This document shows positions 6,675 through 63,383 of a stretch of 64,000 nucleotides of DNA, piece after piece. This DNA comes from an uncultured Bacteroidales bacterium (GTDB lineage Bacteria; Bacteroidota; Bacteroidia; Bacteroidales; Paludibacteraceae), in contig CADCBP010000007.1 of NCBI GenBank assembly GCA_902799705.1, positions 124,001 to 188,000 of the forward strand, in the 5' to 3' direction. The notes below the pieces were generated by a model. The model was not told where the DNA came from. It worked only from the letters and a program-made list of their open reading frames with translations, and made no database searches. Positions within the stretch are counted from its first letter, which is position 1. Every line of letters begins with the position of its first letter. Made by a program: the position numbers and the translations under genes.

Positions 6675-6720
6675 GATCGTATAAATTTTAAAAGATTAAT
6701 TTTTTCAGTTAATTGATTTG

Positions 6721-6752
6721 ACTAGTTGGCTAGAGGACTAGACGACTAGTAC
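6721..6752. repeat. Octamer array between rplL and rplJ
   Basis: CTAG recurs at 6722, 6730, 6738 and 6746, giving four 8-bp units (ACTAGTTG, GCTAGAGG, ACTAGACG, ACTAGTAC). The array ends a few bases before the 3' end of rplJ. It belongs with the other 7-8 bp arrays at gene junctions in this window. Confidence 0.75.
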
Positions 6753-6757
6753 TTTTT

Positions 6758-7285
6758 TTATCCGCGTTTCTCGAGGGTTTGGAGAACGCCGTGGATGGTA
6801 TTTTGTCCACTCTGAAGAGCAGAAACGACATTCTTCGCCGGCGATTGCAGGAGAGCAACCAGTTCTGCGATGAGTTCGTTCTTGGACTTGATAGTGCACA
6901 GGAACTCGAGATTCTGCTTGCCAACGTAAACAGTTTCCTCTACGTAAGCAGCTTTGAGTTGTGGTTTAGCCTCACCGGTCTTGTCGCCTTTGGTAAACTC
7001 TTTGATGAGTTTGGCAGGAGCGTTACCGGTATTGCTGAGCATGAGTGCAGTATTACCCTTGAGGGCTCCGAAGATGTCTGCCTCCACGCCTTTTTTCTCG
7101 AGGGCTTTTTGGAGGAGTGTATTCTTAGCAACCAAGAGTTTGATATCCTGCTTGAAGCAAGCGCGACGCAGCTCGCTGGTTTTCTCTGCATTGAGTCCCT
7201 CGATATTAACGAGGTAGAAATGCGAGAACTCAGTCAGTTGAGCGCCGAGAGCTTCAATAACGAGATTTTTATCTTCCTTTTTCAT
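6758..7285 (-). CDS. rplJ: 50S ribosomal protein L10
   Basis: L10 (175 residues) anchors the L7/L12 stalk on the large subunit. The start MKKEDKNLVIEALGAQLTEF and the motif LLVAKNTLLQKALE are typical. The C-terminal helix that binds L12 dimers is present (NELIAELVALLQSPAKNVVS). It lies 21 bp after rplA and before rplL, in the conserved order. In many bacteria L10-L12 represses its own mRNA; I see no clear leader structure in the short gap here. Confidence 0.98.
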   Translation of the reverse strand: MKKEDKNLVIEALGAQLTEFSHFYLVNIEGLNAEKTSELRRACFKQDIKLLVAKNTLLQKALEKKGVEADIFGALKGNTALMLSNTGNAPAKLIKEFTKGDKTGEAKPQLKAAYVEETVYVGKQNLEFLCTIKSKNELIAELVALLQSPAKNVVSALQSGQNTIHGVLQTLEKRG

Positions 7286-13688: not shown

Positions 13689-13713
13689 TAAAAGAGAAAA
13701 AATACCTCGGGTT

Positions 13714-13768
13714 GCCTCCGAGATGCCTCCGAGATGCCTCCGAGCCGCCTCTGAGTTGCCTCCGATAT
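13714..13768. repeat. 11-bp tandem array
   Basis: Five units of 11 bp (GCCTCCGAGAT, GCCTCCGAGAT, GCCTCCGAGCC, GCCTCTGAGTT, GCCTCCGATAT), preceded by a weaker unit. It begins 26 bp upstream of the DUF4421 promoter. The period is close to one DNA helical turn. Related arrays occur at 38609 and 55466. The remainder of 13769-13870 shows no supported feature. Confidence 0.9.
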
Positions 13769-16511: not shown

Positions 16512-17006
16512 ATGGAGAATGAGTTTATGGCTCAGGTCAAGCAGGAGTTGGAGGAGTATGGCAAAGCGATCGGTGAAGCAGGTCAATTGCAGTTGATTGG
16601 TCTTGTTAGCCGTGTGTTAGGCTTATTTCTGCTGATCTTCACCTTGCTGCTCTGCGCGCTGGCTGTTTTCACTTTCGCCGCAGTAGCCATCATCGATGTG
16701 CTGACGGAGTGTGTGCCTTTATGGGCGGCATCGCTGATTGTAGGCAGCCTGTATATCGTTCTGATCATCCTCGCTATCGCCTGCCGCAAGCCGCTTTTCA
16801 TTCATCCGTTCATCAAACTTCTGTCGAAACAGATCCGTAGCGAAGAGGAGTTGGCTCTCAAGATTATTGAGGCGGAGCATAAAGCGGATGTCTCGCGTGT
16901 ACGCCTGGCCAACCACGTAGAGAACGCTACTCGCGAGGTGACGTTCTATGCCAACCTGTTCTCCCGCGCATGGGACGCGTTGAAAGGACTGCTGCGCAAA
17001 AGGTGA
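16512..17006 (+). CDS. Phage-holin-family (Holin-X-like) membrane protein
   Basis: A 164-residue protein with two hydrophobic segments at about residues 35-65 and 75-97, in the pattern of the holin-X type family found next to YtxH genes in Bacteroidota. Despite the family name no phage genes are near, so a lytic role is not implied. The C-terminal third is a charged helix (EEELALKIIEAEHKADVSRV). The stop TGA (17004-17006) lies in the first unit of an octamer array. Confidence 0.75.
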   Translation: MENEFMAQVKQELEEYGKAIGEAGQLQLIGLVSRVLGLFLLIFTLLLCALAVFTFAAVAIIDVLTECVPLWAASLIVGSLYIVLIILAIACRKPLFIHPFIKLLSKQIRSEEELALKIIEAEHKADVSRVRLANHVENATREVTFYANLFSRAWDALKGLLRKR

Positions 17007-17026
17007 AAGAGTGAAAGAGTGAAAGG
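17003..17026 (+). repeat. Octamer array at a gene junction
   Basis: Three units (GTGAAAGA, GTGAAAGA, GTGAAAGG). The stop codon of the holin-like gene is the TGA of unit one. The AI-2E gene starts 10 bp after the array. Confidence 0.8.
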
Positions 17027-17036
17027 ATAGAGGTCC

Positions 17037-18107
17037 ATGCTTAGTCGTTTGTACGGGGTACTGTTGCCTTTTTTTGTCAGTTTTCTATTGGCCTGGTTGC
17101 TGGATCCGTTAGTGAGTTTTATCCAGCATACATGCCGCGTGAAGTTCCGCGGTCTGTCGGTAGCCATTACATTGATTCTGTTCATAGGATTGATGTCATT
17201 GGCTATCTATATGATCATCCCCGCAATGGGACGCGAGATACGTGCAGCGGCCGTGGGCGTAGAGCAGTATTTCGCCACTTTCGATGCGAGCAAGTACTTC
17301 ACACCCGAGCAGCAGGATAAGATCCAGCGTACGTTAGACGGGTTGAACCTTGAGTCAATGCTCTCTTATCCCGAAGTGCGCGACGGTATCAAGAGTCTGC
17401 TGCCGAAGATCGGCAGTTGGATCACCGGAGGGTTAAATTGGTTAAGCGAGCTATTAGTGATCTTCATCGGCTTGCTATACCTCATCTTTCTGATGATTGC
17501 CTTCCCTTCCATCCGCGCCAACTGGCGCAAGTACGTTCCGGCGAAATACCTGCCTCAGGTATCGACGATTGTGCATGAGATGAGCGTGAACATGAACGCT
17601 TATTTCCGCGGTCAGGGTTTGGTAGCCCTCTGCGTAGGCATCCTGTTCGCTATCGGATTCATGATCATCGGTATGCCGATGGGTTTTGCGATGGGAATCT
17701 TCATCGGTGTTCTCAACCTGGTACCGTATATGCAGGCGCTCGGCATTCCTCCGTGCATCCTGCTATGCCTCGTTCAATCGGCTCAGACGGGTCAACCGGT
17801 ATGGCTGACACTTCTGCTGATGGCTGTTGTGTTCATCGTGGTACAGACCTTGCAGGACACGGTATTGGTTCCGCACATCATGGGCAAGGTGACGGGTTTG
17901 GGTCCTGCCGCGATCTTGTTGAGTCTCAGTGTCTGGGGTGCATTGATGGGCGTCATCGGTATGATTGTTGCGTTACCGCTTACGACGCTCGGTCTGTCGT
18001 GCTACAAGCACTATGTGTTGCACGAACCCTTTGCGTCAGAAACGGAAGTGAAAAGTGAAAGGAAGAAAGTGAAAGGTGAAAGGAAGAAGGTCAAAGGGGA
18101 TGAGTAA
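17037..18107 (+). CDS. AI-2E family transporter (PerM/YdiK type)
   Basis: A 356-residue polytopic protein. Two N-terminal spans precede a long soluble segment at about residues 75-130 and then a conserved membrane core (NAYFRGQGLVALCVGILFAI, then GVLNLVPYMQALGIPPCILL and PHIMGKVTGLGPAAILLSL), which fits the AI-2 exporter-like family. The substrate is unknown for most members. The last 20 or so residues are Lys- and Glu-rich (EVKSERKKVKGERKKVKGDE) and are encoded by a repeat array, so this tail is probably not conserved. It overlaps the next gene by 8 bp. Confidence 0.88.
   Translation: MLSRLYGVLLPFFVSFLLAWLLDPLVSFIQHTCRVKFRGLSVAITLILFIGLMSLAIYMIIPAMGREIRAAAVGVEQYFATFDASKYFTPEQQDKIQRTLDGLNLESMLSYPEVRDGIKSLLPKIGSWITGGLNWLSELLVIFIGLLYLIFLMIAFPSIRANWRKYVPAKYLPQVSTIVHEMSVNMNAYFRGQGLVALCVGILFAIGFMIIGMPMGFAMGIFIGVLNLVPYMQALGIPPCILLCLVQSAQTGQPVWLTLLLMAVVFIVVQTLQDTVLVPHIMGKVTGLGPAAILLSLSVWGALMGVIGMIVALPLTTLGLSCYKHYVLHEPFASETEVKSERKKVKGERKKVKGDE
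18048..18090 (+). repeat. GTGAAAR array forming the 3' end of the AI-2E gene
   Basis: GTGAAAA, GTGAAAG, GAAGAAA, GTGAAAG and GTGAAAG follow in order. They code for the charged C-terminal tail and run up to the start of the acyltransferase. Confidence 0.75.
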
Positions 18108-19109: not shown

Positions 19110-20282
19110 ATGATTAGAGCGTATATTGTAATTGCGTTGTATGTGTTGGTTCCGGTGCTGATCATTGAGTGTTTCAAGCGCTGGACATGGATGCAGAAGA
19201 TCGGTACGGTCGTAGCCGCATACGCGGTGGGTATCCTCTTCGCCCTAACGGGTTTTGTGCATTTCGATGCCGGCACGGCCGAGGCATTGTCGTTCAGCAA
19301 GATCCAGTCCACGCTGATGTCAGTAACCGTACCATTGGCTATTCCGCTGATGCTGTTCAACTGCGATTTCAAGTTATGGACCAAAGCGTTGCCGAAGACC
19401 CTCTGGTCGCTGGTAGGCGGTGTCAGCGCTGTGCTGGTGGCCGTGATAAGCGGTTATTTCATCTTCCGCACCCCGGAAGTACCGGAGTTTAACAAGGTGG
19501 CGGCGATGATGACGGGTATCTACACCGGCGGCACGATGAACTTCAACGCCCTGGGGGCTTCGTTAGGTGTGGATAAGACGGTGATGGCCATCGTGCTGGC
19601 CTTCGAGATGGTACTGACCACGCCGTATATCTTCTTCATCATCGGCGGCGGCTACAAGATCTTCCGTAAGATCCTGCCGTACGAGGATATCACCCGCAGA
19701 GGTCGCAAGGACGAAGCGGTGGAGACCAAGGATATCGAGAACTACAAGGGTATGTTCGACCGCCATAACGCAGGCGGCATGTTCATCGGTTTGGGACTGA
19801 GCATCCTCTTCCTCGCCATTGGTGCCGGACTGGCGCTGCTCATCACGGGTACGCTCAATGAGTTGGTGGTCATCCTGACGATTACGACCTTGTCCATCAT
19901 TGCGTCCTTCTTCAAGAAAGTGCGCGAGTTGCCCAAGACCTTCGAGTTGGGAATGTTCTTCATCCTCATCTTCTCGGTCATCGTGGCATCGCTCTTCGAC
20001 ATTCACAGTGTGAACGGCGGTTCGCTGATGATCGGTCTGTTCGTCGCATGGGTGATGCTCGTTGCTGCGGGACTGCATCTGCTGCTCTGCCGTATCATGC
20101 ACGTGAGCGGTGACTTGTTCTGCGTAAGCCAGATCGCCCTGCTCTGCTCTCCGCCTTTCGTCCCGCCGGTAGTGGGCGCCATGAAAAACAAGAAAGTGCT
20201 CATCTCCGGTATCGTGATCGGGCTGATCGGATACGCCATCGGCACATATTTAGGCGTGGCGATTGCATTTTTATTGAAGTGA
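19110..20282 (+). CDS. DUF819 family membrane protein (YjcL-like)
   Basis: A 390-residue protein with about 10-12 hydrophobic segments. Conserved stretches such as YTGGTMNFNALGASLGVDKT and the C-terminal LCSPPFVPPVVGAMKNKKVL fit DUF819, a transporter-like family of unknown substrate. A hydrophilic loop of about 40 residues (EDITRRGRKDEAVETKDIEN) splits the two halves. The stop codon lies in the first unit of the heptamer array at 20279. Confidence 0.85.
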   Translation: MIRAYIVIALYVLVPVLIIECFKRWTWMQKIGTVVAAYAVGILFALTGFVHFDAGTAEALSFSKIQSTLMSVTVPLAIPLMLFNCDFKLWTKALPKTLWSLVGGVSAVLVAVISGYFIFRTPEVPEFNKVAAMMTGIYTGGTMNFNALGASLGVDKTVMAIVLAFEMVLTTPYIFFIIGGGYKIFRKILPYEDITRRGRKDEAVETKDIENYKGMFDRHNAGGMFIGLGLSILFLAIGAGLALLITGTLNELVVILTITTLSIIASFFKKVRELPKTFELGMFFILIFSVIVASLFDIHSVNGGSLMIGLFVAWVMLVAAGLHLLLCRIMHVSGDLFCVSQIALLCSPPFVPPVVGAMKNKKVLISGIVIGLIGYAIGTYLGVAIAFLLK

Positions 20283-20306
20283 AAAGTGAAAAGTGAAAGG
20301 TGAAAT
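20279..20306 (+). repeat. Heptamer array from stop codon to start codon
   Basis: Four perfect 7-bp units (GTGAAAA, GTGAAAA, GTGAAAG, GTGAAAT). The stop TGA of the DUF819 gene is at 20280-20282 in unit one, and the preferred ATG of the barrel gene (20305-20307) begins in unit four. Confidence 0.9.
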
Positions 20307-21801
20307 GAGAAGATTTCTGATTATAGTATTAGCTGCGCTGTTGGCATTGCCGATGGCGGCGAAGAAGAAAGAGCCCAAACCGCAGGAAGTGGATTCGTTG
20401 GGTCGTAAGATCAAGACCGGTTGGAACTTCGGCATCCTGCCTTCTATCGCGTATGACGCCGATTACGGTTTTCAGGGCGGATTGCTGACCAACGTCTATT
20501 TCTACGGCGACGGCAAGCAGTATCCGGAGTATATCCACTCGATATACGTCGAGGCGGCTTATACCACGAAGCATCACGGTATCTTCCGCGTCAACTACGA
20601 CTCCAAATACCTCATTCCGGGGTATCGTCTGACGCTCGACGCGACCTATCTGCCGGACGCGATGTGCGACTTCTACGGATTCAACGGATACCCGTCGCGT
20701 TATAATGCCGACTGGTGCGCATGGAACAAAGACTCCACGAAGATGAACCTGGACGAATACCGTACCCGTGTCTTCTACAAGTACAAACGCGACCTGATCC
20801 GCGTAGCCGGTGACATCGAAGGTACAATCTACAAAGACCTGAAATGGAACGCCGGTGTCGGTGTGTTAGGTTATCTCGTCGGCGACTGCGATATCAACAT
20901 GCTCAACGGAAGGAACGTCTATGTCGATACGCTGCGTCACCAGAAAGCGCTCAACCCGAACGAACAGTTGCTGTACGACAAGTACAAGACCTGGGGTCTG
21001 ATTGGAGCGGATGAGATGAACGGCGGTTGGCATCCCTACGCCCGCGCCGGTATCACCTACGACACCCGCGACAAACGCCAGGGCCCGAACAAAGGTATCT
21101 ATACCGACCTTTTCTTCACCTACTCGGCGGCCTTCAATGCGGCGTACGGTCAACAGGCCGCAGCGGGTTACAACCACCTGCAGTTCAACTTCACATTCCG
21201 TCATTACGTGCCGTGTTACTACGACAAGAACGGCATCAACCGCATCACGTTCGCATACCGTCTTGGGTTGCAGAACCTCATCGCCGGCCACTCGCCGTTC
21301 TACATGAACAACTACATGAACGCGCTCTTCATCCAGCGCGTGTACTACGAAGGACTGGGAGGAGGTAACTCCGTACGCGGCATGATGGCGCATCGTATCT
21401 TAGCCAACGGCTTTGCGTTTGCGAACGTCGAGTTCCGGTTCCGCGTAGTCAATTTCGATATCGGACGCCAACATTTCTTTATCGGTTTGAACCCGTTCTT
21501 CGACCTCGGTATCGTGACGCAGCCGTATAACCTCGACGCACTTGTAGCGCGCAACACGCACGGGCTGTACCAGACGCTCGCCGAGAGTTTTGACGCACAT
21601 CATGATCCGGACGAGCAGTTCTCGGACTATTTCACCTCTGATTCCAAAGATATCTATCGTCCGCACATGACTTTTGGTGTGGGACTGAAGATCGGAATGA
21701 ACGAGAACTTCGTACTCTCCGCCGACTGGGGAATGCCGATTGACCGGCAGGACAATAACAAACTGGCCAACTTCTACGTAAAGATGGGATACCTTTTTTA
21801 A
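20305..21801 (+). CDS. BamA/TamA-like outer-membrane protein
   Basis: About 498 residues from MRRFLIIVLAALLALPMAAK, a clear signal peptide; a start four codons upstream is possible. The mature protein is rich in alternating Tyr, Phe and Gly strands. It contains YARAGITYDTRDKRQGPNKG, close to the bacterial surface-antigen (Omp85 C-terminal barrel) motif, and ends in NFYVKMGYLF with a terminal Phe. No POTRA domains precede the barrel, so this is a short barrel-only member. It precedes an RND efflux trio, which hints at an outer-membrane role linked to export; that link is inference. Confidence 0.8.
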   Translation: MRRFLIIVLAALLALPMAAKKKEPKPQEVDSLGRKIKTGWNFGILPSIAYDADYGFQGGLLTNVYFYGDGKQYPEYIHSIYVEAAYTTKHHGIFRVNYDSKYLIPGYRLTLDATYLPDAMCDFYGFNGYPSRYNADWCAWNKDSTKMNLDEYRTRVFYKYKRDLIRVAGDIEGTIYKDLKWNAGVGVLGYLVGDCDINMLNGRNVYVDTLRHQKALNPNEQLLYDKYKTWGLIGADEMNGGWHPYARAGITYDTRDKRQGPNKGIYTDLFFTYSAAFNAAYGQQAAAGYNHLQFNFTFRHYVPCYYDKNGINRITFAYRLGLQNLIAGHSPFYMNNYMNALFIQRVYYEGLGGGNSVRGMMAHRILANGFAFANVEFRFRVVNFDIGRQHFFIGLNPFFDLGIVTQPYNLDALVARNTHGLYQTLAESFDAHHDPDEQFSDYFTSDSKDIYRPHMTFGVGLKIGMNENFVLSADWGMPIDRQDNNKLANFYVKMGYLF

Positions 21802-21832
21802 AGTTTAAAGTTGAAAGATTAAAGTTTAAAGA
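21798..21832 (+). repeat. Heptamer array from stop codon to RND adaptor start
   Basis: Five perfect units (TTAAAGT, TTAAAGT, TGAAAGA, TTAAAGT, TTAAAGA). The stop TAA of the barrel gene is in unit one and the adaptor ATG lies 3 bp after the last unit. Confidence 0.92.
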
Positions 21833-22953: not shown

Positions 22954-25900
22954 ATGAAGGGTAATATATTCATCTCGAGGCATGTGATGGCGTGCGCAAT
23001 CGCCATCGTGATCATGCTGGTCGGATATATCAGTCTCAATACCTTGCCCGTTGAGCAATATCCGAATATTGCGCCGCCTACGGTGGAGGTCTCTACGTCC
23101 TACTCGGGTGCGGATGCATACAACTGTATGAAATCAGTTATCCAGCCGCTTGAGGAGCAGATCAACGGTGTAGAGGACATGACGTACATGACCAGTTCGG
23201 CAACCTCGACGGGTGACGTGACAATCACCGTGTTTTTCAAACAGGGCACGGATCCGAATATCGCGACGGTGAACGTCCAGAACCGTGTCGCGCAGGCGCA
23301 ACCGCTGCTGCCGAGCGACGTGCTCAAGGTCGGCGTCACGACCACGAAGCGACAGAATAGTATCCTGCAGATCGCCGGACTCAAATCGACGGACGGCAAG
23401 TACGACGCGGATTTCATCTCAAACTATATCGACATCAATATCAAGCCCCGTCTGCTGCGTGTGACGGGTGTAGGAAACGTCACCAACCTCGGTAACACCT
23501 ATGCGCTGCGCGTATGGCTGAAGCCGGAGGTGATGGCGCAATATGGGTTGGTACCGAATGATGTAGCCGCTGCAATCGATGCGCAGAGCTTCGTGACTGC
23601 TACCGGTACACTCGGTCAGCAGTCCGAGAACGCCTATCAGTACCCGATGGAGTACAAAGGTACGCTGAAGAGTATCGAGGAGTTTGAAAACATCGTCCTG
23701 CGCACGCAGGATAACGGTACGATACTGTATCTGAAAGACGTAGCGACGATAGAGATCGGCGCCAAGTCCTATACCATGACCTCGCTTATGGACGGTGTAC
23801 CGGGTGTGTTCTTCCTTATCAACCAGGCGCCGGGAGCGAATGCGACACTGGTCAACCAGAAGATTGACGAACTATACGAGCAGTTAAAACCGACATTGCC
23901 TGCCGGACTGGAATTCGTCACGCTGCAGACGAGTAATGACTTCCTCTTCGCCGCCATTCACAACGTGGTGGAAACGCTGGTCATCGCCATCCTGCTGGTT
24001 ATTCTCGTTGTCTATTTCTTCCTGCAGGATTTCAAGGCGACGCTTATCCCGTCCATCTCGATCATCGTCTCGCTGCTGGGTACATTCACAATCGTACAGA
24101 TGGCCGGTTTCTCGCTGAACATACTCACGCTCTTCGCTTTGGTGCTCGCTATCGGTACTGTCGTCGATGATGCGATCGTCGTCGTCGAAGCGGTGATGGC
24201 GAAGCTGGAGACGGGTAAGATGCAGGGTTCTCCTAAGGAGCAAGCCGTTCAGGCTACCCGCGAGGCACTGAGTGAAGTGTCGGTAGCCGTTATCTCGTGT
24301 ACACTTGTCTTTATGGCCGTGTTCATCCCGGTGACGTTCATGAGTGGTACTTCGGGTACGTTCTTCACCCAGTTCGGTATCACGATAGCGGGTTCGGTAG
24401 GTCTGAGTTGCGTCTGCGCACTCGTGCTCTGTCCTGCGTTGTGCGCACTCCTGATGCGCCCCAACGAACCGGCGACAGAAGGGAAGCCTTCCTCCAAATG
24501 GAAAGGTATCAATTATTACACCAAGATCGCTTACGAGGCCAGCTATAATGCAATCCTCGACAAGTATAAGAAAGCCGTACAGGTCTATCTGAAACGTCCG
24601 TGGGTTTCGTTCGCCCTCTTAGGCGGCGCCGTGGTGCTGTTTGTACTCTTCATGAAGATCATGCCTTCGGGTCTCGTTCCGCAAGAAGACCAGGGTGTGA
24701 TTATCTGCGAGGTACGTATGCCCGAAGGCTCTACGCTGCATGAGAACACGGAGATCATGAAGCAGGTAGAAGAGAAAGTGAAGGCTATTCCGGAGATGGA
24801 GAGTTACGGCCTGTGTAGCGGCTATGGTATGCTCTCTTCACAAGGATCCAGTTATGCCACGCTCATCATCCGTCTCAAGAACTGGGACGACCGTCCGGGC
24901 TTCAAGCATTATATTGATGCCGTGATGGCGCGGTTCTACTACGACTGTCTGAGTATCAAGAACGCCCAGGTGATTCCGTTCCAGATGCCGCAGATACCGG
25001 GTTATGGTAACTCCAGTAATATAGACCTGCAGGTACAGGATATGAGCGACGGCGACATGACCGAGTTCTGCGAATATACCAACCGGTTCCTGAACAAACT
25101 GCAGGAACGCCCGGAGATCGAGAGCGCGATGTCCTCCTACTCGGAGCGTTTCCCGAAATTCAAAGTACATGTTGATCCGATCCAATGCGAGCGTGCCGGC
25201 ACGACGGCTAAAGAGGTGCTCAACACCCTCGGTACGTACTGCGGCGGAGCGTATGTAGGTAACTTCAACCAGTTCAGCAAGGTCTATCAGATATGGGTGA
25301 GTGCGGCGCAGGAATACCGCCTTGACCCCTCCTCGCTCAATAACATGTATATCAAGGTGAGCAACGGCAAGATGGCGCCGCTGTCCCAGTTCGTGCGCCT
25401 TGAGGAGATAGTAGGATCGTCCTCGCTGACCCATTTCAACCTATCCCAGACCATCTCCTGCTCCGTCGGAGCGGCCAATGGCTATTCGGAAGGCGAGGCG
25501 CATAAAGCCATCGCAGAAGTATTCAAAGAGGTGATGCCATCCTACTGCTCGTTCGAATACGGCTCGATGTCGCGCGAGGTAGAAGAGAACTCCAAGAGCA
25601 ACACCACCCTGATCATCTACCTCATCTGTATCATCCTGATATACCTCATCTTAGGTTCGCTCTATAACAGCTGGATCACGCCTTTCGCCGTACTGCTGTC
25701 TGTGCCGTTCGGTCTGATGGGTTCGTTCCTCTTCTCGTGGATAGGCAACAAGATGGGGCTGCCGGGTATGGAGAACAACATCTACCTGCAGACCGGTGTG
25801 ATCATGCTGATTGGTCTGTTAGCCAAGACGGCGATTCTGATTACCGAGTTCGCTTCGGAGCGCCGCAAGCAGGGTCTTTCGATCGTCGAAGCAGCACTCG

Positions 25901-26172
25901 AGGCTTGTAAAGAGCGTCTGCGTCCGATCCTGATGACCGTCATCACGATGATCGTCGGTATGATTCCGCTCGTCATCTCCGGCGGTGCCGGCGCGAACGG
26001 AAACCGCGCTTTGGCGCTCGGCGTCGTAGGAGGTATGTCAATCGGTACCCTCGCCCTGGTATTCGTCGTACCGGCCTTCTTCATCGTCTTCCAGACCCTG
26101 GAGGAGAAAATCAGCGGTCAGCCGGCAGCAATCAGCAATCAGCAATCCGAAGGAAAGGAGGAAGAGAAATGA
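22954..26172 (+). CDS. RND multidrug efflux permease (AcrB/HAE1 family)
   Basis: A 1072-residue proton-driven pump of normal length. The N-terminal span is followed by LNTLPVEQYPNIAPPTVEVS, typical of HAE1 pumps. The proton-relay motif GTVVDDAIVVVEAV carries the two conserved Asp residues in TM4. The second half repeats the fold (MLIGLLAKTAILITEFASER, then LRPILMTVITMIVGMIPLVI). The last residues [15 protein letters not shown] come from a heptamer array and look like a late addition. Its stop overlaps the next start by 4 bp (ATGA), so channel translation is coupled. Confidence 0.95.
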   Translation: MKGNIFISRHVMACAIAIVIMLVGYISLNTLPVEQYPNIAPPTVEVSTSYSGADAYNCMKSVIQPLEEQINGVEDMTYMTSSATSTGDVTITVFFKQGTDPNIATVNVQNRVAQAQPLLPSDVLKVGVTTTKRQNSILQIAGLKSTDGKYDADFISNYIDINIKPRLLRVTGVGNVTNLGNTYALRVWLKPEVMAQYGLVPNDVAAAIDAQSFVTATGTLGQQSENAYQYPMEYKGTLKSIEEFENIVLRTQDNGTILYLKDVATIEIGAKSYTMTSLMDGVPGVFFLINQAPGANATLVNQKIDELYEQLKPTLPAGLEFVTLQTSNDFLFAAIHNVVETLVIAILLVILVVYFFLQDFKATLIPSISIIVSLLGTFTIVQMAGFSLNILTLFALVLAIGTVVDDAIVVVEAVMAKLETGKMQGSPKEQAVQATREALSEVSVAVISCTLVFMAVFIPVTFMSGTSGTFFTQFGITIAGSVGLSCVCALVLCPALCALLMRPNEPATEGKPSSKWKGINYYTKIAYEASYNAILDKYKKAVQVYLKRPWVSFALLGGAVVLFVLFMKIMPSGLVPQEDQGVIICEVRMPEGSTLHENTEIMKQVEEKVKAIPEMESYGLCSGYGMLSSQGSSYATLIIRLKNWDDRPGFKHYIDAVMARFYYDCLSIKNAQVIPFQMPQIPGYGNSSNIDLQVQDMSDGDMTEFCEYTNRFLNKLQERPEIESAMSSYSERFPKFKVHVDPIQCERAGTTAKEVLNTLGTYCGGAYVGNFNQFSKVYQIWVSAAQEYRLDPSSLNNMYIKVSNGKMAPLSQFVRLEEIVGSSSLTHFNLSQTISCSVGAANGYSEGEAHKAIAEVFKEVMPSYCSFEYGSMSREVEENSKSNTTLIIYLICIILIYLILGSLYNSWITPFAVLLSVPFGLMGSFLFSWIGNKMGLPGMENNIYLQTGVIMLIGLLAKTAILITEFASERRKQGLSIVEAALEACKERLRPILMTVITMIVGMIPLVISGGAGANGNRALALGVVGGMSIGTLALVFVVPAFFIVFQTLEEKISGQPAAISNQQSEGKEEEK
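26127..26147 (+). repeat. Heptamer array in the 3' end of the RND permease gene
   Basis: Three perfect AGCAATC units encode the Ile-Ser-Asn-Gln-Gln-Ser part of the C-terminal tail. The unit has no stop codon on either strand. Confidence 0.85.
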
Positions 26173-29964: not shown

Positions 29965-29999
29965 TTAAAGTTTAGAGATTAGTGTTTAGAGTTTAGAGA
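29965..29999 (+). repeat. Heptamer array after pnp
   Basis: Five perfect units (TTAAAGT, TTAGAGA, TTAGTGT, TTAGAGT, TTAGAGA) start at the base after the pnp stop codon and end where the terminator begins. Confidence 0.92.
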
Positions 30000-38608: not shown

Positions 38609-38652
38609 CGCTTCAGGGGCGCTTCAGGGGCGCTTCAGAGGCGCTTCGGAGG
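38609..38652. repeat. 11-bp tandem array
   Basis: Four units (CGCTTCAGGGG, CGCTTCAGGGG, CGCTTCAGAGG, CGCTTCGGAGG). Read on the minus strand they begin CCTCCGA or CCCCTGA, which relates them to the arrays at 13714 and 55466. Confidence 0.88.
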
Positions 38653-38847
38653 CATCCTAGACTTTGTTAAAAATTCTTTCTTGTAAATTACACATTATCA
38701 GCATATTACAATGCATGTCAAGACACATGAAAAATAACGATTTTGACCGTTTGAAATCCGCTATATTTTCTTTCTCTTGTAACTATAACCCATCAATCCA
38801 TCATTTGTTTGCGTGCCATAGCTATCGCGGCGCTACTCACAAAAACA

Positions 38848-42175: not shown

Positions 42176-42691
42176 ATGAAAAAATTCGTATATGACGAGT
42201 CCACTATCGCCTTTGTGACGGCCGCTGCCCAGACCTGTCTGCTAATCGAGAAGAGCAGCGAGCATGAGCGTGAGGAGTGGAGAGAACAGATGCTTCGCCT
42301 TCTTCCGGTGCTGTACCTCCGTGCGCGCTTGCTGGATCAGGAGGAAGAGTTGGCCGGCGAAGAACCTCAGCGGTTTGTGACAGAAGAGGATTATAACTAC
42401 GCGCTGGTCGGCATCCGCGAACTGCTGGGATCGGACGACGCGTACCTCGATGTGTTCGTGGACCAGGGCATCTATACCGACGAGGTACAGACCGCATATA
42501 TCTCCGAGCAGTTAGCGGACATCTATCAGGAGTTGAAGGACCTGGCGGCAGGTTTTCAGACGGGCGACGAGACGATCATGCACGATGCGGCAGTCGTATG
42601 CCGCGAGGCGTTCAAGGAGCACTGGGGCCAGAAAGTGCTGGCAGTGATGAGGGCGCTGCATGCCTTTAGGAATGATGGAATGATGGAATGA
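42176..42691 (+). CDS. DUF5063 family protein
   Basis: A 171-residue, mostly helical, acidic protein without signal peptide or membrane segment. MKKFVYDESTIAFVTAAAQT at the start and REQMLRLLPVLYLRARLLDQ fit DUF5063, found in Bacteroidota next to a 3'-5' exonuclease gene as here. The function is unknown. The last codons and stop lie in AATGATGG repeats, and the stop overlaps the next start (ATGA). Confidence 0.75.
   Translation: MKKFVYDESTIAFVTAAAQTCLLIEKSSEHEREEWREQMLRLLPVLYLRARLLDQEEELAGEEPQRFVTEEDYNYALVGIRELLGSDDAYLDVFVDQGIYTDEVQTAYISEQLADIYQELKDLAAGFQTGDETIMHDAAVVCREAFKEHWGQKVLAVMRALHAFRNDGMME
42671..42691 (+). repeat. Octamer array at the DUF5063-exonuclease junction
   Basis: AATGATGG, AATGATGG, then AATGA. 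The start codon of the exonuclease and the stop codon of DUF5063 overlap inside the last partial unit. Confidence 0.7.
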
Positions 42692-43535: not shown

Positions 43536-44900
43536 ATGAAACGCTATCTCTTATCTATTGTCTTAGCGCTCTGCGCTTTGTGCGCCTTTGGCGAAATCAA
43601 GTATGTCTTCTATTTCATCGGCGACGGCATGGGAGCCAACCAGGTCTTGGGTGCAGAGATGTACCGTTCGGCGCTGGAGGGCGAGCCTTTAGGTCGCGTA
43701 CAGACGCTGATGACGAGTTTTCCGTATTCGGGCAGCGCCGGTACATTCTCGGCGAGTAATGGTATCACGGACAGTGCCGCCGCTGGTACGTGTCTTGCCA
43801 CAGGCAAGAAGACGAAGAACGGCATGTTAGGTCTCGGTCCTGACAGCACCCGGCTGACCACTATCGCCGAGGAGTTGAAGGCAGAGGGTTGGGGTATCGG
43901 CATCATGACGACCGTAGCTATCGACCACGCCACACCGGCGGCGTTCTACGCGCACGTGACGAAACGCAACAAGTATTACGAGATAGGTCAACAGTTGAGC
44001 GAGAGCGGTTTTGACTTCTTCGGCGGCGCGGGTTTTCATCACCCGCAGGGCAAGAAAGACGACGAGCCGGTCAACCTGTACCGCTTGGCGGAAGAACGCG
44101 GCTATACGGTTGTACACGGCATGGAGGAATTTTCCGAGATACCGGAATCCCGATATACCGACATTTCGAAGATGATTCTCGTGCAGAAGGATGACGACCA
44201 GGGCGCGAAGCATGGCAGCAACCTGCCCTACGCGATAGACCGAAAAGAGGGTGACTTGAGCTTGCAGCAGATCGTGCGCACCGCTATCCCGTTCCTCGCG
44301 GCACGTCACGAGCGTTTCTTCATGATGGTAGAAGGCGGGATGATCGACTATGCGTGTCACAGTGACGATGCGGCGACCGCGTTCGGCGAGGTATGGGACA
44401 TGGACGAGGCGATGCGGGAGGCATACGCTTTCTACGAGCAGCATCCCGACGAAACGCTGATCATCGTGACTGCCGACCATGAGACAGGCGGTCTCGCTCT
44501 CGGCAACAGCGATTACACCCTGCACTTGGACGTGCTACAAAACCAGCAATGCTCAGGATGGATGCTACAAGAGATGCTCCTCAAAGACAAGAAGAAACCG
44601 AGTTGGAAGGAAGTGAAACAGCTCTACCGCGAGCAGTTGGGATTCTGGGACAAGGTAGAGATCCGTGCGTCCGAGGAGCGGGAGCTGAAGACCTTATATA
44701 AAAACACGCGCGCGGAGGAGAGCGCCGATGCCGGCATCGCGCTGCTGAACAAGAAAGCGCATATCGGATGGACCACCCACGCACACTCGGCGCACGTCGT
44801 GCCGATCTTCGCTATCGGCGCCGGCGCAGAGCACTTCAGCGGATGGCACGACAACACGGAGATCGCTCCGCTGATAAGAAAAGTGAAAGGTGAAAGGTGA
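43536..44900 (+). CDS. Alkaline phosphatase
   Basis: A 454-residue secreted phosphomonoesterase with a signal peptide (MKRYLLSIVLALCALCAFGE). Metal and catalytic residues are visible: Asp30 in YFIGDGMGANQ, the nucleophile Ser80 in GITDSAAAGT, VEGGMIDYACHSDDA and TADHETGG, and the late His in GWTTHAHSAHVVP. The phosphorylated-Ser context TDSAAAGT is standard. The final residues KVKGER and the stop codon are encoded by a GTGAAAG array. It probably supplies phosphate from organic esters in the periplasm. Confidence 0.93.
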   Translation: MKRYLLSIVLALCALCAFGEIKYVFYFIGDGMGANQVLGAEMYRSALEGEPLGRVQTLMTSFPYSGSAGTFSASNGITDSAAAGTCLATGKKTKNGMLGLGPDSTRLTTIAEELKAEGWGIGIMTTVAIDHATPAAFYAHVTKRNKYYEIGQQLSESGFDFFGGAGFHHPQGKKDDEPVNLYRLAEERGYTVVHGMEEFSEIPESRYTDISKMILVQKDDDQGAKHGSNLPYAIDRKEGDLSLQQIVRTAIPFLAARHERFFMMVEGGMIDYACHSDDAATAFGEVWDMDEAMREAYAFYEQHPDETLIIVTADHETGGLALGNSDYTLHLDVLQNQQCSGWMLQEMLLKDKKKPSWKEVKQLYREQLGFWDKVEIRASEERELKTLYKNTRAEESADAGIALLNKKAHIGWTTHAHSAHVVPIFAIGAGAEHFSGWHDNTEIAPLIRKVKGER

Positions 44901-44910
44901 AAGGTGAAAT
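44883..44910 (+). repeat. Heptamer array at the 3' end of the alkaline phosphatase gene
   Basis: GTGAAAG, GTGAAAG, GTGAAAG, GTGAAAT. The stop TGA (44898-44900) lies within unit three. A second array of ATGATGGA-type words follows at 44931-44964. Confidence 0.9.
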
Positions 44911-44965
44911 GAGCGCGACTACGTCGCTCAATGATGAATTGATGGAATGATGGAATGATGAAATT

Positions 44966-51535: not shown

Positions 51536-51567
51536 CGTAATCACGTAATTACGTAATGACGTAATGA
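51536..51567. repeat. Octamer array between dusB and the HD-domain gene
   Basis: Four units (CGTAATCA, CGTAATTA, CGTAATGA, CGTAATGA). It fills most of the 41-bp gap between dusB and the HD-domain gene. Confidence 0.88.
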
Positions 51568-51571
51568 CGAA

Positions 51572-53473: not shown

Positions 53474-54657
53474 TATCGTTTGTTCTTAAAAAATGCTTGT
53501 ATGAGTTCACGACATTCTGTTTCGAGCACTCCCGCCGTAACAGTAGCTTTAGGGTGGAAGGTGCGTGGTGCGTAGATGGTGTATCCTCGTTTTGGGTCGG
53601 GTGCGCCGTACACGATACGGCTTATCTGCGCCCATCCGATAGCGCCCGCGCACATCGGGCAGGGTTCGACGGTGACATAGAGCGTGGCATCCGGAAGGTA
53701 CTTCCCACCGAGCGTCTGTGAAGCGGCTGTGATGGCCTGTATCTCTGCGTGCGCTGTGACGTCTGCGAGGGTCTCCGTGAGGTTATGTCCGCGCCCGATA
53801 ATTTGGTTCTGACTGACGATGACGCAGCCGATAGGTATCTCGTCCGCCGCCAGGGCTTTCTCTGCCTCGCAGAGGGCGAGACGCATGAAGCGCTCGTCCG
53901 CTCCATTTACCATTTTATCATTTACCATTTGGTCATTTATTTGACCATTTGGAGATTTAGCCATTTGACAGAAATGGGCGATTTCATCGGGATGGGTCTC
54001 GAAATGGTTGCCGATGACTACGACATCCGCGCCTGCATCGTACGCGACCTTCATCGCTTCCGGTGTTCGTATTCCTCCGCCGACGATGAGGGTGACGGAA
54101 GTCTTTGCGCGGACCGCCCGGATGATTTTTGCCGAGACGGGTTTCTCCGCTCCGCTTCCCGCTTCCAGATAGACCGCTTTCTTACCCATCAACTCCGCCG
54201 CGATACAGGTGTCCACGATGGTATCTAAGTCTGCCGGATTGAGCGGTTGAGTATGAGAAACACGCATCGTAGAAGTGAACACTCCGCCATCGATGAGGAT
54301 ATAAGCCGTTGGGACGAAATCCATCTGTGATTCAAGGATGGCACGCGCCGCCTTAACTTGCTGATCCACAAGAAATTCCGGATTACGACCGGAGAGCAGA
54401 GAGAGGAACAAGATACCGTCTGCTTCTGGGGTAAACTGGGACGAATTTCCAGGGAAAAGAATGACGGGTATTTTGTATTTTTGATTTTTGATTTTTGATT
54501 TTAGTTCTTGGACAAACTCCGTTGTATCGCCGCCGGTTGAACCGCCAACAAAGAGGTAGTCGGGATGGCACTCGTCGGTAAAGGTAAGGCGCGAAAGGTC
54601 GGCCTTTTCCGGATCGAGCAATACGGCTAAACTTCTATGTTTGAGTGTCATTTCCAT
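53473..54657 (-). CDS. Fusion of GGGP synthase and tRNA adenosine deaminase TadA
   Basis: A 394-residue protein with two unrelated enzymes in one frame. Residues 1 to about 230 are a geranylgeranylglyceryl-phosphate synthase of the Bacteroidota type (SLAVLLDPEKADLS, DYLFVGGSTGG, ILFPGNSSQF, YLEAGSGAEKP, IVGGGIRTPEAM, VVVIGNHFE). Residues about 253-394 are TadA, which makes inosine at the wobble position of tRNA-Arg: HAEIQAI (303) and PCPMCAGAIGWAQ (332). The linker, residues 231-252 (SPNGQINDQMVNDKMVNG is its core), is encoded by a 7-8 bp array. Internal ATG codons in the linker could also start a separate TadA. Each half has full normal length. Array residues also occur inside the synthase (about 53-62). 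Confidence 0.9.
   Translation of the reverse strand: MEMTLKHRSLAVLLDPEKADLSRLTFTDECHPDYLFVGGSTGGDTTEFVQELKSKIKNQKYKIPVILFPGNSSQFTPEADGILFLSLLSGRNPEFLVDQQVKAARAILESQMDFVPTAYILIDGGVFTSTMRVSHTQPLNPADLDTIVDTCIAAELMGKKAVYLEAGSGAEKPVSAKIIRAVRAKTSVTLIVGGGIRTPEAMKVAYDAGADVVVIGNHFETHPDEIAHFCQMAKSPNGQINDQMVNDKMVNGADERFMRLALCEAEKALAADEIPIGCVIVSQNQIIGRGHNLTETLADVTAHAEIQAITAASQTLGGKYLPDATLYVTVEPCPMCAGAIGWAQISRIVYGAPDPKRGYTIYAPRTFHPKATVTAGVLETECRELIQAFFKNKR
53908..53966. repeat. 7-8 bp array encoding the GGGPS-TadA linker
   Basis: On the plus strand ACCATTT recurs at about 53908, 53923 and 53945, alternating with TATCATTT, GGTCATTT, GGAGATTT and AGCCATTT. On the coding strand the words begin AAATGG and the frame is open from synthase to TadA. 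Confidence 0.82.
54471..54505. repeat. Heptamer array inside the GGGP synthase part
   Basis: TTTTGTA, TTTTTGA, TTTTTGA, TTTTTGA, TTTTAGT without gaps. On the coding strand the frame reads ELKSKIKNQKYK, a lysine-rich loop. Confidence 0.9.
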
Positions 54658-55465: not shown

Positions 55466-55520
55466 TACCCCGAGATTACCCCGTAACGATCCCGAGACGA
55501 CCCCGAGACGATCCCGAGAC
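55466..55520. repeat. 11-bp tandem array in the manC leader
   Basis: Five units (TACCCCGAGAT, TACCCCGTAAC, GATCCCGAGAC, GACCCCGAGAC, GATCCCGAGAC). The core CCCGAGA relates it to the CCTCCGAGA core at 13714. The array is open in the manC frame. Confidence 0.88.
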
Positions 55521-55559
55521 GATAAGGTAAGTACCATCAAAAAACACAAAGCAGATAAT

Positions 55560-58792: not shown

Positions 58793-60051
58793 AAGCGTTA
58801 ATGTTCGGTTGGGAGTTTCCCCCTCATATCTTAGGCGGTTTGGGTACCGCGAGTTACGGATTGACCCGCGGCATGGCAGAGCAGCCTGACATGGATATCA
58901 CGTTCGTCATTCCGAAGCCATGGGGTGACGAGGATCAATCGTTCCTCCGCATCATCGGCGCGAACAGCGTGCCTATCGTATGGAAGGACGTGAACTACGA
59001 TTACGTCAAGTCGCGTATGGAAGGCAAGATGAGTCCGGAGGAGTATTATCACCTGCGTGACGGCATTCATTACGACTACCGCCGTATCGGCACGGACGAC
59101 CTCGGTTGCGTCGGTTTCTCGGGCCGCTATCCTGATAACCTGATCGAGGAGATCGGCAACTACGAAGCGGTAGCCAGTGTACTGGCGCACAGTCTGGATT
59201 TCGACATCATTCACAGTCACGACTGGCTGACCTACCCGGCGGGTGTGTTTGCGAAACATATCAGCGGCAAGCCGCTGGTTATCCACGTCCATGCGACGGA
59301 TTTCGACCGGAGCCGCGGCAACGTGAACCCAACGGTATATGCCATCGAGAAACGCGGTATGGACGAAGCCGATCATATCATATGCGTAAGTAACCTGACG
59401 CGCAACACGGTGATCGAGAAATACGGTCAGGACCCGCGCAAAGTGAGCACGGTACACAACGCGGTGGAGCCGCTGGCCCATCCGGAGGAGTTCAAGAAAC
59501 CCGAGCGCAAAGACAAGCTGGTTACATTCCTCGGCCGTATCACGATGCAGAAAGGTCCGGAGTATTTCGTAGAGGCCGCAGCACGCGTGCTGAGCAAGAC
59601 GGACGGCGTTCGTTTTGTGATGGCAGGCAGCGGAGACAAGATGACGGAGATGATCGATCTGGTTGCCAAACGCGGCATAGCGGACAAGTTCCACTTCCCC
59701 GGTTTCATGCGCGGCAAGCAGGTTCAGGAGATGCTCGCGATGAGCGACGTCTATATCATGCCGTCCGTGAGCGAGCCGTTCGGTATCAGTCCGCTGGAGG
59801 CGATGCAGGTAGGTTGTCCGTCGATCATCAGTCATCAGTCGGGTTGCGCAGAGATCCTGCAGCACGCCATCAAGACCGACTACTGGGATATCGATGCGAT
59901 GGCCGATGCCATCTACGCGATTGTCAAGTATCCGGCGCTGTACAAGAGTCTGCATGAACTCGGCATGGCGGAAGTCAACAACATCAAGTGGTCGGACGCC
60001 GGACTGAAAGTGCGCGCAATTTACGACGGTGTGATAAATCACACGTTGTAA
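58789..60051 (+). CDS. Glycosyltransferase family 4, glycogen-synthase-like
   Basis: A 420-residue GT-B enzyme. The N-terminal domain begins MKALMFGWEFPPHILGGLGT, with the Gly-rich acceptor loop, and has IIHSHDWLTYPAGVFAKHIS. The C-terminal domain has FLGRITMQKGPEYFVEAA and the EX7E motif in SEPFGISPLEAMQVGCPSII. Its place between a debranching enzyme and a GH57 protein suggests synthesis of an alpha-glucan from a nucleotide-glucose; the donor is not certain. The stop TAA is in the first unit of the next array. Confidence 0.9.
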   Translation: MKALMFGWEFPPHILGGLGTASYGLTRGMAEQPDMDITFVIPKPWGDEDQSFLRIIGANSVPIVWKDVNYDYVKSRMEGKMSPEEYYHLRDGIHYDYRRIGTDDLGCVGFSGRYPDNLIEEIGNYEAVASVLAHSLDFDIIHSHDWLTYPAGVFAKHISGKPLVIHVHATDFDRSRGNVNPTVYAIEKRGMDEADHIICVSNLTRNTVIEKYGQDPRKVSTVHNAVEPLAHPEEFKKPERKDKLVTFLGRITMQKGPEYFVEAAARVLSKTDGVRFVMAGSGDKMTEMIDLVAKRGIADKFHFPGFMRGKQVQEMLAMSDVYIMPSVSEPFGISPLEAMQVGCPSIISHQSGCAEILQHAIKTDYWDIDAMADAIYAIVKYPALYKSLHELGMAEVNNIKWSDAGLKVRAIYDGVINHTL

Positions 60052-60082
60052 AGTTGAAAGTTGAAAGTTTAAAGTTTAAAGA
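60048..60082 (+). repeat. Heptamer array between GT4 and GH57 genes
   Basis: Five perfect units (GTAAAGT, TGAAAGT, TGAAAGT, TTAAAGT, TTAAAGA). The GT4 stop TAA (60049-60051) is in unit one and the GH57 ATG is 15 bp after the array. Confidence 0.92.
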
Positions 60083-61363: not shown

Positions 61364-61387
61364 GAGTTTAGTGTTTAGTGTTTAGAG
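61364..61387 (+). repeat. Heptamer array between GH57 and the porin gene
   Basis: GAGTTTA, GTGTTTA, GTGTTTA and a partial GAG unit. It starts at the base after the GH57 stop; the porin TTG start is 8 bp downstream. Confidence 0.85.
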
Positions 61388-61394
61388 AACAGAT

Positions 61395-63338
61395 TTGCGA
61401 TTAAAGCGGAGTTTTATAGTATTAGTGCTGTTGGCAGCGACCCTTGTGGCCGCTGCCAAGCCGCCGCGTATCAAGACGGTAGTGCGCACATGGCAGATGC
61501 CGTCCTACAGCGCGGTAGCCGATACTATTCCTTTCCGCGACACTACGATGCTCAACTATCACGACATCGACATCCAGCAACGGTATTCGTTGAGCAGTGC
61601 ATTCAACGGCAATATCCTGGTGTCTCCTATCGAGTCGCGCGTAGTGCAGCACCGTCTGACGACGATAGACGATCCGTTTGCCGTCAGTCTGACGCCGTAC
61701 GTGGTAACGCCGCAGCAGCAACGTTTCTTTAACACGACGACCCCCTACTCGTCCATCGCCTACAAGAAAGGTTTTGTTACAGGGCACGAAGAGAACGACC
61801 TCAGTTTTCTTTTCACCGGTAACTTAGGTCGCGAGACGAATCTGGGTGTAGAGATGGAGTATCTGAATTCGGTAGGTCACTACGCCAACACGGCCGGCAA
61901 ACTGTTCCGCGGCAGTGTATGGGGCAGTTACACCGGCGCGCATTACAGCATGCATGGCGCGTTCGGATGGAGCTCGCTCAGTTCGTTCGACAACGGCGGG
62001 TTGGTGAATGTAGAAGATCTGCGAAGCAGCCTGCGTCCCGGGGATATCCCTGTCCAGTTGAACGCCATGACCGGCTACCGATATTTGAGCGGTTACCTGC
62101 ATAACCAGTACGCGATCACCAAAGAGCGCGAGTACCACGACTCGATCGAGGTGGTAGAAGACGGTCAGCGCGTTAAGCGCGACACGGTGAAGGTGGAGTA
62201 CATCCCTCTGATCACGTTCAGTCATATCTTCGAGACGAACAACTCGAACAGGCGCTATATAGAGCAGGTCTCGGACCAGGGATTCTATGATCATATCTAC
62301 TACGACTCGCTGGCGACAGATGACCACACGGACGTACTGACAATCCGCAACACTCTGGCTGTGACATTCTGCGAGGCATACAACAGGAAGTTGAAGTTCG
62401 GCGCAACGGTTTTTGCAATGAACGAGTTCCAGCGGCATCTCTTTGACAGCGTGCCGTACGACAGCATCTTCGACTACCGCTGGACCAACAACACGTATGT
62501 CGGCGGAGCTATCCATAAGCATCGCGGCGCGAACGTACATTATACCGTAGAGGGTCAAGTATGCGTGGTGGGCTACAAGATCGGCGAGTTTGACGTCCAC
62601 GGCAAGTTGGAGACGGCGTTCCGCGTAGGGGACACGACCTTGCTGGTAAGTGCGCGAGCTTATGCGAAGAGCGTCACGCCGAGTCCGTACCTGCAGCGTT
62701 TCCGCTCGAACCACCTGATATGGGACAACGCGTTCGGGTTCACATACCGTTTCCTCGGCGGCGCATCGGTTGCCTATCCCTATAAATGGGTGAAGCCGCG
62801 GATTGATTTCAGTTTTGAGAACCAGACGAACCCCATCTATGTCTCCGCATTGGACTGGAAGCCTCGTCAGTTCCGCGGCAACGTACAGATCATCACGGGC
62901 GATATAGGGCTGGACATCACCACGCCGTGGGTGAATTTAGAGAATCGCCTGGTGGTTCAACATTCGACCAATGACAGCGTGATGCCGGTTCCGCTGCTCA
63001 TTTTACAACACCGGCTATACTATCACGGCACATGGTGGAGAGCGTTGGACGCGCAGATGGGTGTGGACGTACGTTATTTCACGCGCTACCATGCGCCGAT
63101 ACTGTGTCCCGAGACGGGTATGTTCGGTACACAAAGCGACATTAACGTCGGTAACTATCCATGGATGAGTGCATACGCGAGTTTTTATGTGAGGTCGATC
63201 CGCTTGCGGTTCTTCTTCCATTACCAGCATTTGAACCATCTGTTTATGAAGAATAACATTGACTACCTGGCCATGCCCGGTTATCCGACCAACCGCGACA
63301 CATTCCGCGCCGGTCTTGCATGGCATTTCTATAATTAA
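61395..63338 (+). CDS. Putative porin (Porin_10-like outer-membrane barrel)
   Basis: A 647-residue protein. I choose the TTG at 61395 as start because it gives a good signal peptide (RLKRSFIVLVLLAATLVAAA); the first ATG lies beyond it. The body alternates hydrophobic and polar residues, rich in Tyr, Phe and Asn (LFTGNLGRETNLGVEMEYLN, then GSVWGSYTGAHYSMHGAFGW) and fits the Bacteroidota putative-porin family. The C-terminus is FRAGLAWHFYN, an outer-membrane-type last strand. What passes through it is unknown. The stop lies in unit one of the 63335 array. Confidence 0.82.
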   Translation: MRLKRSFIVLVLLAATLVAAAKPPRIKTVVRTWQMPSYSAVADTIPFRDTTMLNYHDIDIQQRYSLSSAFNGNILVSPIESRVVQHRLTTIDDPFAVSLTPYVVTPQQQRFFNTTTPYSSIAYKKGFVTGHEENDLSFLFTGNLGRETNLGVEMEYLNSVGHYANTAGKLFRGSVWGSYTGAHYSMHGAFGWSSLSSFDNGGLVNVEDLRSSLRPGDIPVQLNAMTGYRYLSGYLHNQYAITKEREYHDSIEVVEDGQRVKRDTVKVEYIPLITFSHIFETNNSNRRYIEQVSDQGFYDHIYYDSLATDDHTDVLTIRNTLAVTFCEAYNRKLKFGATVFAMNEFQRHLFDSVPYDSIFDYRWTNNTYVGGAIHKHRGANVHYTVEGQVCVVGYKIGEFDVHGKLETAFRVGDTTLLVSARAYAKSVTPSPYLQRFRSNHLIWDNAFGFTYRFLGGASVAYPYKWVKPRIDFSFENQTNPIYVSALDWKPRQFRGNVQIITGDIGLDITTPWVNLENRLVVQHSTNDSVMPVPLLILQHRLYYHGTWWRALDAQMGVDVRYFTRYHAPILCPETGMFGTQSDINVGNYPWMSAYASFYVRSIRLRFFFHYQHLNHLFMKNNIDYLAMPGYPTNRDTFRAGLAWHFYN

Positions 63339-63383
63339 AGTTGAAAGTTTATAGTTGAAAGTTTACAGTTTAAAGTATAGAGA
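63335..63383 (+). repeat. Seven-unit heptamer array from porin stop to clpC start
   Basis: TTAAAGT, TGAAAGT, TTATAGT, TGAAAGT, TTACAGT, TTAAAGT, ATAGAGA. The stop TAA (63336-63338) is in unit one and the clpC ATG (63384) follows unit seven directly. It is the longest exact example in the window. Confidence 0.95.

Follow-up and report, generated by a model that had tools for sequence, protein, structure and literature searches.

Stop-anchored tandem arrays with a 7- to 8-bp period at gene junctions of a Bacteroidales genome and their turnover among relatives

Tandem arrays with a period of 7 or 8 bp at gene junctions of an uncultured Bacteroidales bacterium are real features, far above chance expectation, are anchored at the stop codon of the upstream gene, and undergo fast turnover between close relatives. 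An earlier note had described such arrays as running from stop codon to start codon; anchoring at the stop replaces that description. Here, we propose that they are probably near-neutral minisatellites that arise by replication slippage or short-homology template switching and are seeded at gene ends.

The window (the whole stretch of DNA analyzed, 64,000 nucleotides) is part of contig C7 of a 2.3-Mb draft genome, of which 464 of 2,325 kb were sampled (the window plus 400 kb more). Genes were called with a home-made finder using a simple codon model, and tandem periods of 3 to 20 were scanned (at least 14 matched bases). The named relatives (G171 and the like) are Bacteroidales metagenome-assembled genomes (MAGs), some of them Paludibacteraceae, and several come from goat, sheep, or cattle forestomach or abomasum; RUG in their names presumably stands for rumen.

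In the 464-kb sample, 32 of the genome’s 110 same-strand gaps of 18 to 150 nt held a period-7 or period-8 array (shuffled gaps: mean, 0.15; maximum, 1). Intergenic arrays numbered 26 at period 7, 13 each at periods 8 and 11, 10 at period 14, 1 at period 4, and 0 at periods 5, 6, 10, 12, and 13, and a resampled null gave 0 at every period except 3. The periods that stand out are 7, 8, and 14 to 16, plus a separate 11-bp class. Some arrays (16 of 42 at period 7, 6 of 19 at period 8, and 5 at period 9) lay mostly within predicted coding sequence. Most sampled sister genomes, which are not independent of one another and are included in the array counts below, had a similar period spectrum; the exceptions were G011 (no period-7 array in 80 kb, but 4 of period 8 and 11 of period 11) and G004 and G007 (one period-7 array each). 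Sampled stretches from eight other families (244 kb) held one period-7 array and two period-15 arrays.

The junction first flagged separates a Porin_10 gene from one with a Clp_N domain (clpC). Read directly, its gap contains a period-7 array at 63335-63376, TTAAAGT TGAAAGT TTATAGT TGAAAGT TTACAGT TTAAAGT, which includes the porin stop; the clpC ATG stands at 63384, 7 leader bases after the array end. Seven contiguous units from stop to ATG (63335-63383) had been claimed. The array to 63376 holds up, but ATAGAGA at 63377-63383, the supposed seventh unit, matches the array units poorly, and because TAGAGA-ATG also precedes clpC in G171 and G143, relatives with a different array unit, it reads as leader. 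Three further sites reported as exact spans (20279-20306, 21798-21832, and 60048-60082) do carry period-7 arrays, at 20277-20305, 21797-21831, and 60050-60081; exact spanning from stop to start fails, with 4 nt (21797) and 16 nt (60050) between array and ATG. Arrays are also present at the sites described as looser links between gene pairs, but those at 29965 and 44883 lie between convergent genes, where no start codon follows. The features in the window were as follows.

6675-6757, minus strand: rplJ-rplL gap, in which the stop is followed by degenerate CTAGTCNN octamers (seen by eye, under the array threshold) and then by a conserved leader.
17003-17025, plus strand: period-8 array GTGAAAGA, over the stop at 17004-17006.
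18046-18095, plus strand: mixed GTGAAAG/AAGTGAAA array at the 3′ end of open reading frame (ORF) 17037-18107.
20277-20305, plus strand: period-7 array AAGTGAA, from the stop at 20280-20282 to the first base of the ATG at 20305 (a home-made gene call; GTG at 20293 is also open).
21797-21831, plus strand: period-7 array TTTAAAG, over the stop at 21799-21801, before the ATG at 21836.
26126-26147, plus strand: period-7 array CAGCAAT, free of stops in sense, inside the part of 22954-26172 that encodes the C-terminal tail.
29965-29998, plus strand: period-7 array directly after a stop, convergent genes.
42669-42691, plus strand: period-8 array GGAATGAT, spanning an ATGA at which stop and start overlap.
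44878-44909, plus strand: period-7 array GAAAGGT, in a convergent gap and overlapping 43536-44900 at its 3′ end.
44932-44964, plus strand: period-8 array in the same convergent gap as 44878-44909.
51536-51569, minus strand: period-8 array reading GTCATTAC in the sense direction, flanked by a stop (51572) and a start (51530).
60050-60081, plus strand: period-7 array at the GT4-GH57 junction (stop, 60049-60051; ATG, 60098).
61366-61385, plus strand: period-7 array GTTTAGT between the GH57 and porin genes, 2 nt past the stop.
63335-63376, plus strand: period-7 array of the AAAGTTG/AAAGTTT family, beginning one base before the porin stop.
63336-63338, plus strand: stop TAA of the porin (Porin_10), within the first repeat unit.
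63377-63383, plus strand: clpC leader, the claimed seventh unit, with TAGAGA common to G171 and G143.

By our own gene calls, 10 of the 19 window arrays lay at most 22 nt from a stop, 2 more at 32 and 46 nt, and 7 not near one. At the 51572 junction, G171 has other units, and G119 has overlapping genes and no array. The gene that ends at 19104 has an array-like C-terminal tail, which varies in length and unit between species (L092, L097, L101, L104, and the window).

Edges were analyzed for 135 same-strand junction arrays (own and sister genomes, gaps up to 400 nt). The 5′ edge fell within −10 to +5 of the stop in 81, and the 3′ edge fell within −10 to +5 of the start in 50, the latter because many gaps are short. 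Both edges are close in a short gap, so gaps with slack are decisive. With slack of at least 40 nt, 17 of 35 arrays started no more than 5 nt from the stop (null, 4.8 ± 2.0; maximum, 13 in 2,000 draws), whereas 6 of 35 ended no more than 5 nt from the start, no excess over the null (4.8 ± 2.0). Anchoring at both codons had been expected, and only the stop half of that expectation was borne out. Between convergent genes, 12 of 22 arrays lay within 5 nt of a stop (null, 6.0 ± 1.6; maximum, 12 in 2,000); between divergent genes, near-start arrays (2 of 48) were not in excess of the null (2.9). The stop anchoring in gaps with slack and the convergent and divergent placements together indicate that the arrays belong to gene 3′ ends. 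Units were diverse (64 period-7 classes among 147 arrays, own and sister genomes), and some were biased toward the sense orientation (AAAGGTG, 10:1; GATAATT, 8:0).

Two junctions were compared across the genus, GT4-GH57 (J42, window 60051) and porin-clpC (J44, window 63338), in the named relatives and other congeners. The input of 103 loci (60 fetched places, 23 named loci, and 20 earlier stretches, some genomes occurring twice) over-represents nearer relatives, the 60 places having been picked by hand, mostly the best-scoring ones and near kin. The junction was located in 88 (J42) and 85 (J44) loci; with our own added, and N-containing, identical, and near-identical gaps collapsed, 89 gaps were reduced to 46 and 86 to 58. 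A period-7 or period-8 array was present in 18 of the 46 distinct J42 gaps (period 7 in 17, period 8 in 1) and 26 of the 58 distinct J44 gaps (22 and 4), against a shuffled mean of 0.1 (maximum, 2); the other scoring periods (of 4 to 20) were 14 to 16, and 13 once. Gap lengths ranged from 12 to 173 nt at J42 and from 1 to 162 nt at J44. All 26 J44 arrays started at −8 to +7 of the stop, as did 14 of the 18 J42 arrays at −3 to +7, with the rest at +10, +12, +30, and +43. At least a dozen units were distinguished by eye at J44 (AATTGAT, AATTGAG, AATTCAC, AAAGTTG, GGTGAAA, AAGATTTG, AGAGTCA, AAAGTCG, TTTGAAA, ACTGATT, and others). In dozens of relatives, one gap thus shows one period, differing letters, and one fixed edge, which makes the question of why simple repeats in bacteria favor seven bases testable by sequence comparison and by mutation accumulation. 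The remaining species had short array-free gaps or other repeated elements in place.

GACCGC-based modules with CTGACAGA, CTGTAAGA, or CTCAAAGA parts follow the stop at the 60051-type junction in L062, L063, L070, and L078. Such modules also occur in the gap of the 51572-type junction in L063, L065, and L072. At both junctions, they stand where other species have heptamer arrays. Elements with a palindromic CCCTCCC-loop-GGGAGGG part occupy post-stop sites in L056, L064, L067, and L171.

The arrays are in register with the genes that they follow. With arrays scored from gap sequence alone, the last 6 bases of the upstream gene equaled the base one period on at a frequency of 0.562, compared with 0.417 ± 0.019 when gene ends were shuffled among 65 loci (0 of 3,000 shuffles) and 0.28 to 0.32 at wrong offsets (one or two bases off). 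J44 alone gave 0.594 versus 0.496 ± 0.023 (1 of 3,000 shuffles), and the register at J42 alone was weak (132 of 3,000 shuffles reached the observed value). The gene’s stop triplet was repeated one period on in 13 of 37 cases at J42 and J44 combined (expected, 6.4 ± 1.8; 2 of 5,000). This register ties the first unit to the local gene end.

Units also recur across the genome. Among 51 own period-7 arrays, 39 pairs shared a unit class, against 3.4 ± 2.1 expected from composition and 4.9 ± 2.0 from permuted units; the largest class held 5 arrays, as did the simulated maximum. The degenerate 20-mer CATTTACSATTTGGNCATTT, from the 15-bp family CATTTACC/GATTTGGTC (window 53904-53939), had 25 matches in the genome (control, 0). 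The pattern AAAGKTK, whose reversed control was not independent because it also matches AAAGTTG arrays, occurred in 141 of 178 congeners (0 to 148 matches), in 33 of 150 genomes of the family, and in 63 of 295 of the order; this unit family is therefore not restricted to the genus. Local birth alone falls short of explaining the genome-wide recurrence. At 4 places of 12 fetched 20-mer loci (L183, L186, L187/L188, and L190), a complementary stretch was seen further on by eye; arms with AAATGGTAC-like or AAATGGCTAAA-like parts at L183, L186, L187, and L190 could form a long imperfect hairpin.

Comparison with relatives, as the earlier note had advised, showed that array presence, unit sequence, and length all vary. 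Own and G171 sequences (91 to 93% identical over the region) were compared, leaving aside genes that overlap and the porin-clpC junction, because the window ends inside clpC. Of the 8 junctions where one or both genomes had an array, 0 kept their gap length, compared with 9 of 14 without a called array (length changed at the other 5), and median gap identity was 0.54 at array junctions and 0.95 at the others; an above-threshold array was present in both genomes at 4 of the 8. Even the rplJ-rplL gap (Ribosomal_L10, Ribosomal_L12) of a ribosomal operon was rewritten, with the CTAGTCNN octamers replaced by CCCGTAAT octamers in G171 and the leader unchanged. Between G171 and G143 (97.5% identical), J44 differed by exactly 14 nt, the single clear case of a whole-unit change. 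A 43-nt J42 array gap is identical in G171, G143, G127, G075 (L125, L178, L179, L180), and L065, but G119 and G061, near kin of G127, have a 12-nt gap with no array, which points to recombination between species as well.

We infer the following sequence of events. Replication slippage or short-homology template switching would favor 7- to 8-bp steps, and the last bases of the gene, including the stop, would supply the first repeat, so that an array starts at or just after the stop. Such DNA may be tolerated downstream of the stop, up to where the next leader (or a neighboring gene end) begins. Later gain and loss of whole units would change array length, and replacement would be frequent; copying between arrays across the genome probably also contributes, giving rise to the recurring unit families. 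The suggestion in the earlier note that a mutational process expands junction sequence fits these data, unlike its other proposal, a modular junction. The weak register at J42, the sense-orientation bias, and the 7 of 19 window arrays away from stops count against near-neutral minisatellites, as do the genome-wide recurrence of units, the 50 array ends near starts, the arrays lying mostly in predicted coding sequence, and the altered length of 5 of 14 junctions without a called array; the strong sense bias could also come from selection on mRNA. The arrays call for caution before such repeats are taken for regulatory elements.

A different and unlikely reading, although the best placed of the alternatives, is that an active DNA-copying process rather than ordinary slippage writes 7- to 8-bp arrays at gene ends in this genus and swaps them between junctions genome-wide: a strand ending at the stop would pair with any array sharing a few bases, copy units, and return. 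If so, J44, with its 58 distinct gaps, would be a natural record of the process.

Less likely again is the insertion of ready-made, dispersed mobile arrays as units at post-stop sites by a dedicated enzyme. The recurring unit families and the 25-fold 20-mer are as expected for such elements, as is the richer genome-wide complement of AAAGKTK in genomes whose J42 or J44 gap has an AAAG-family array (n = 15; median, 42 matches, versus 22.5 in 46 genomes without one; P = 0.012, with classes assigned by eye and no kinship correction). However, neither fixed ends nor fixed lengths were seen, and register with each gene’s own end suggests local birth or microhomology capture. A reverse transcriptase (PF00078) was rejected as the array writer, since none was found in our array-rich genome and it was present in only 35 of 178 congeners.

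The arrays might instead be selected fail-safe terminators, in which stop-bearing units with a period not divisible by 3 place stops in every frame and prevent read-through; to this, one half of the modular junction of the earlier note, we give lower odds still. Three-frame stops were present in 85 of 135 sense arrays, compared with 36 of 135 in antisense and 66.5 ± 4.7 after sense columns were permuted. Among arrays beginning after the stop (n = 54), 31 had three-frame stops (expected, 20.3 ± 3.0), and the stop triplet recurred one period on in 23 of 81 (12.2 ± 2.6). Stop-free arrays can be absorbed into ORFs, so the excess of 85 in 135 is open to ascertainment. At J42 and J44, defined by homology, three-frame stops (23 of 40, versus 26.1 ± 2.4 with unit columns permuted) were not in excess; base composition and period therefore explain them, and three-frame stops as a selected feature were rejected. 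In addition, by eye, neither CAGCAAT nor the core unit of the CATTTACC 15-bp family contains a stop in sense, yet both lie at gene ends, and 28 of 46 J42 gaps and 32 of 58 J44 gaps lack a period-7 or period-8 array.

Doubtful to a greater degree are translation modules: unstructured leaders or spacers, poor in C and rich in A, by which re-initiation or ribosome loading at the downstream gene would be set, as proposed for TAACTGA repeats. Sense arrays are indeed rich in A (0.41) and poor in C (0.09) relative to other gap sequence (0.33 and 0.20), and the majority of array gaps show little structure (median z, −0.15; 31 gaps). The spacing for re-initiation that had been suggested is nevertheless opposed by the range of J44 gap lengths and the missing start anchoring where there is slack, the grounds on which such a module was rejected, by the arrays at convergent gene ends, and by 6674-6758, where the ATG-adjacent leader is conserved and the array is not. 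RNA hairpins were rejected on the same median z; 6 of the 31 array gaps fell below −2, including palindromic CGTAATTA, CTAGT, and CATTTACC types.

An assembly or binning artifact is highly improbable: these are draft MAGs, and two loci (L059 and L071) have runs of N at such junctions, but the same arrays occur in separately published MAGs, the 43-nt array gap at 60051 is identical in G171 and G143, and most sampled sister genomes have a similar period spectrum.

The claim that no described element forms gene junctions in this way was too strong, two known heptamer families being comparable. In PMC4679880, TAACTGA heptamers in Beggiatoaceae, cyanobacteria, and some Bacteroidetes adjoin starts, with a number of them overlapping the stop of the gene before; its author notes that they give stops in every frame, indels between two Cyanothece are mostly in 7-nt steps, and other heptamers are reported in a few Bacteroidetes gaps. 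Our arrays resemble these in being intergenic heptamers at gene junctions that overlap the upstream stop, but the TAACTGA repeats as described there have one unit, mostly just upstream of starts, whereas ours have many units and are stop anchored. Two copies of TAACTGA were found 0 times in the window and in 0 of 193 fetched loci, and membership in that family was rejected on the absent unit and the lack of start anchoring of array ends.

According to PMC4692102, GGGAATC heptamers (Xanthomonas, Nostoc), a G-quadruplex-forming unit, lie close to the upstream gene; where they follow a gene and share its coding strand, most are 0 to 50 nt from the stop and some overlap it. Their length varies between species, 83% of sites are kept between two species, and paired inverted arrays are frequent. 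Ours are likewise near the upstream gene, stop proximal (the 81 of 135 above), and variable in length; the GGGAATC repeats of that account have one G-rich unit at retained sites, whereas ours differ in unit and turn over. Two copies of GGGAATC occurred 0 times in the window and in 0 of 193 loci, and membership was rejected on the absent unit and on site retention (0 of 8 array junctions keep their length in G171).

Both papers credit Mrazek 2007 with the excess of 7-bp-period repeats and the idea of polymerase slippage and footprint. The long simple sequence repeats (LSSR) cited there, tandem units of 5 to 11 nt that exceed chance length and are most often of 7 nt, have a similar heptamer peak, and our arrays fit that class (26 intergenic at period 7 and 13 at period 8; null, 0); change in copy number by whole units was seen in the G171/G143 J44 case alone. 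The stop register and per-species replacement did not feature in the passages on that work consulted in the two papers. No description of multi-unit stop-anchored arrays in Bacteroidales was found in the literature covered, which included few subscription papers. Heptamer arrays themselves are already known elsewhere; the unit diversity, stop register, and rapid turnover look new.

The 11-bp tandem arrays form a class separate from periods 7 and 8, with 14 in the 464-kb sample. Those in the window, of TGCCTCCGAGA, CGCTTCAGGGG, and CCCGAGACGAT types (13713-13762, 38609-38653, and 55486-55523), lie in gaps of 331 to 872 nt.
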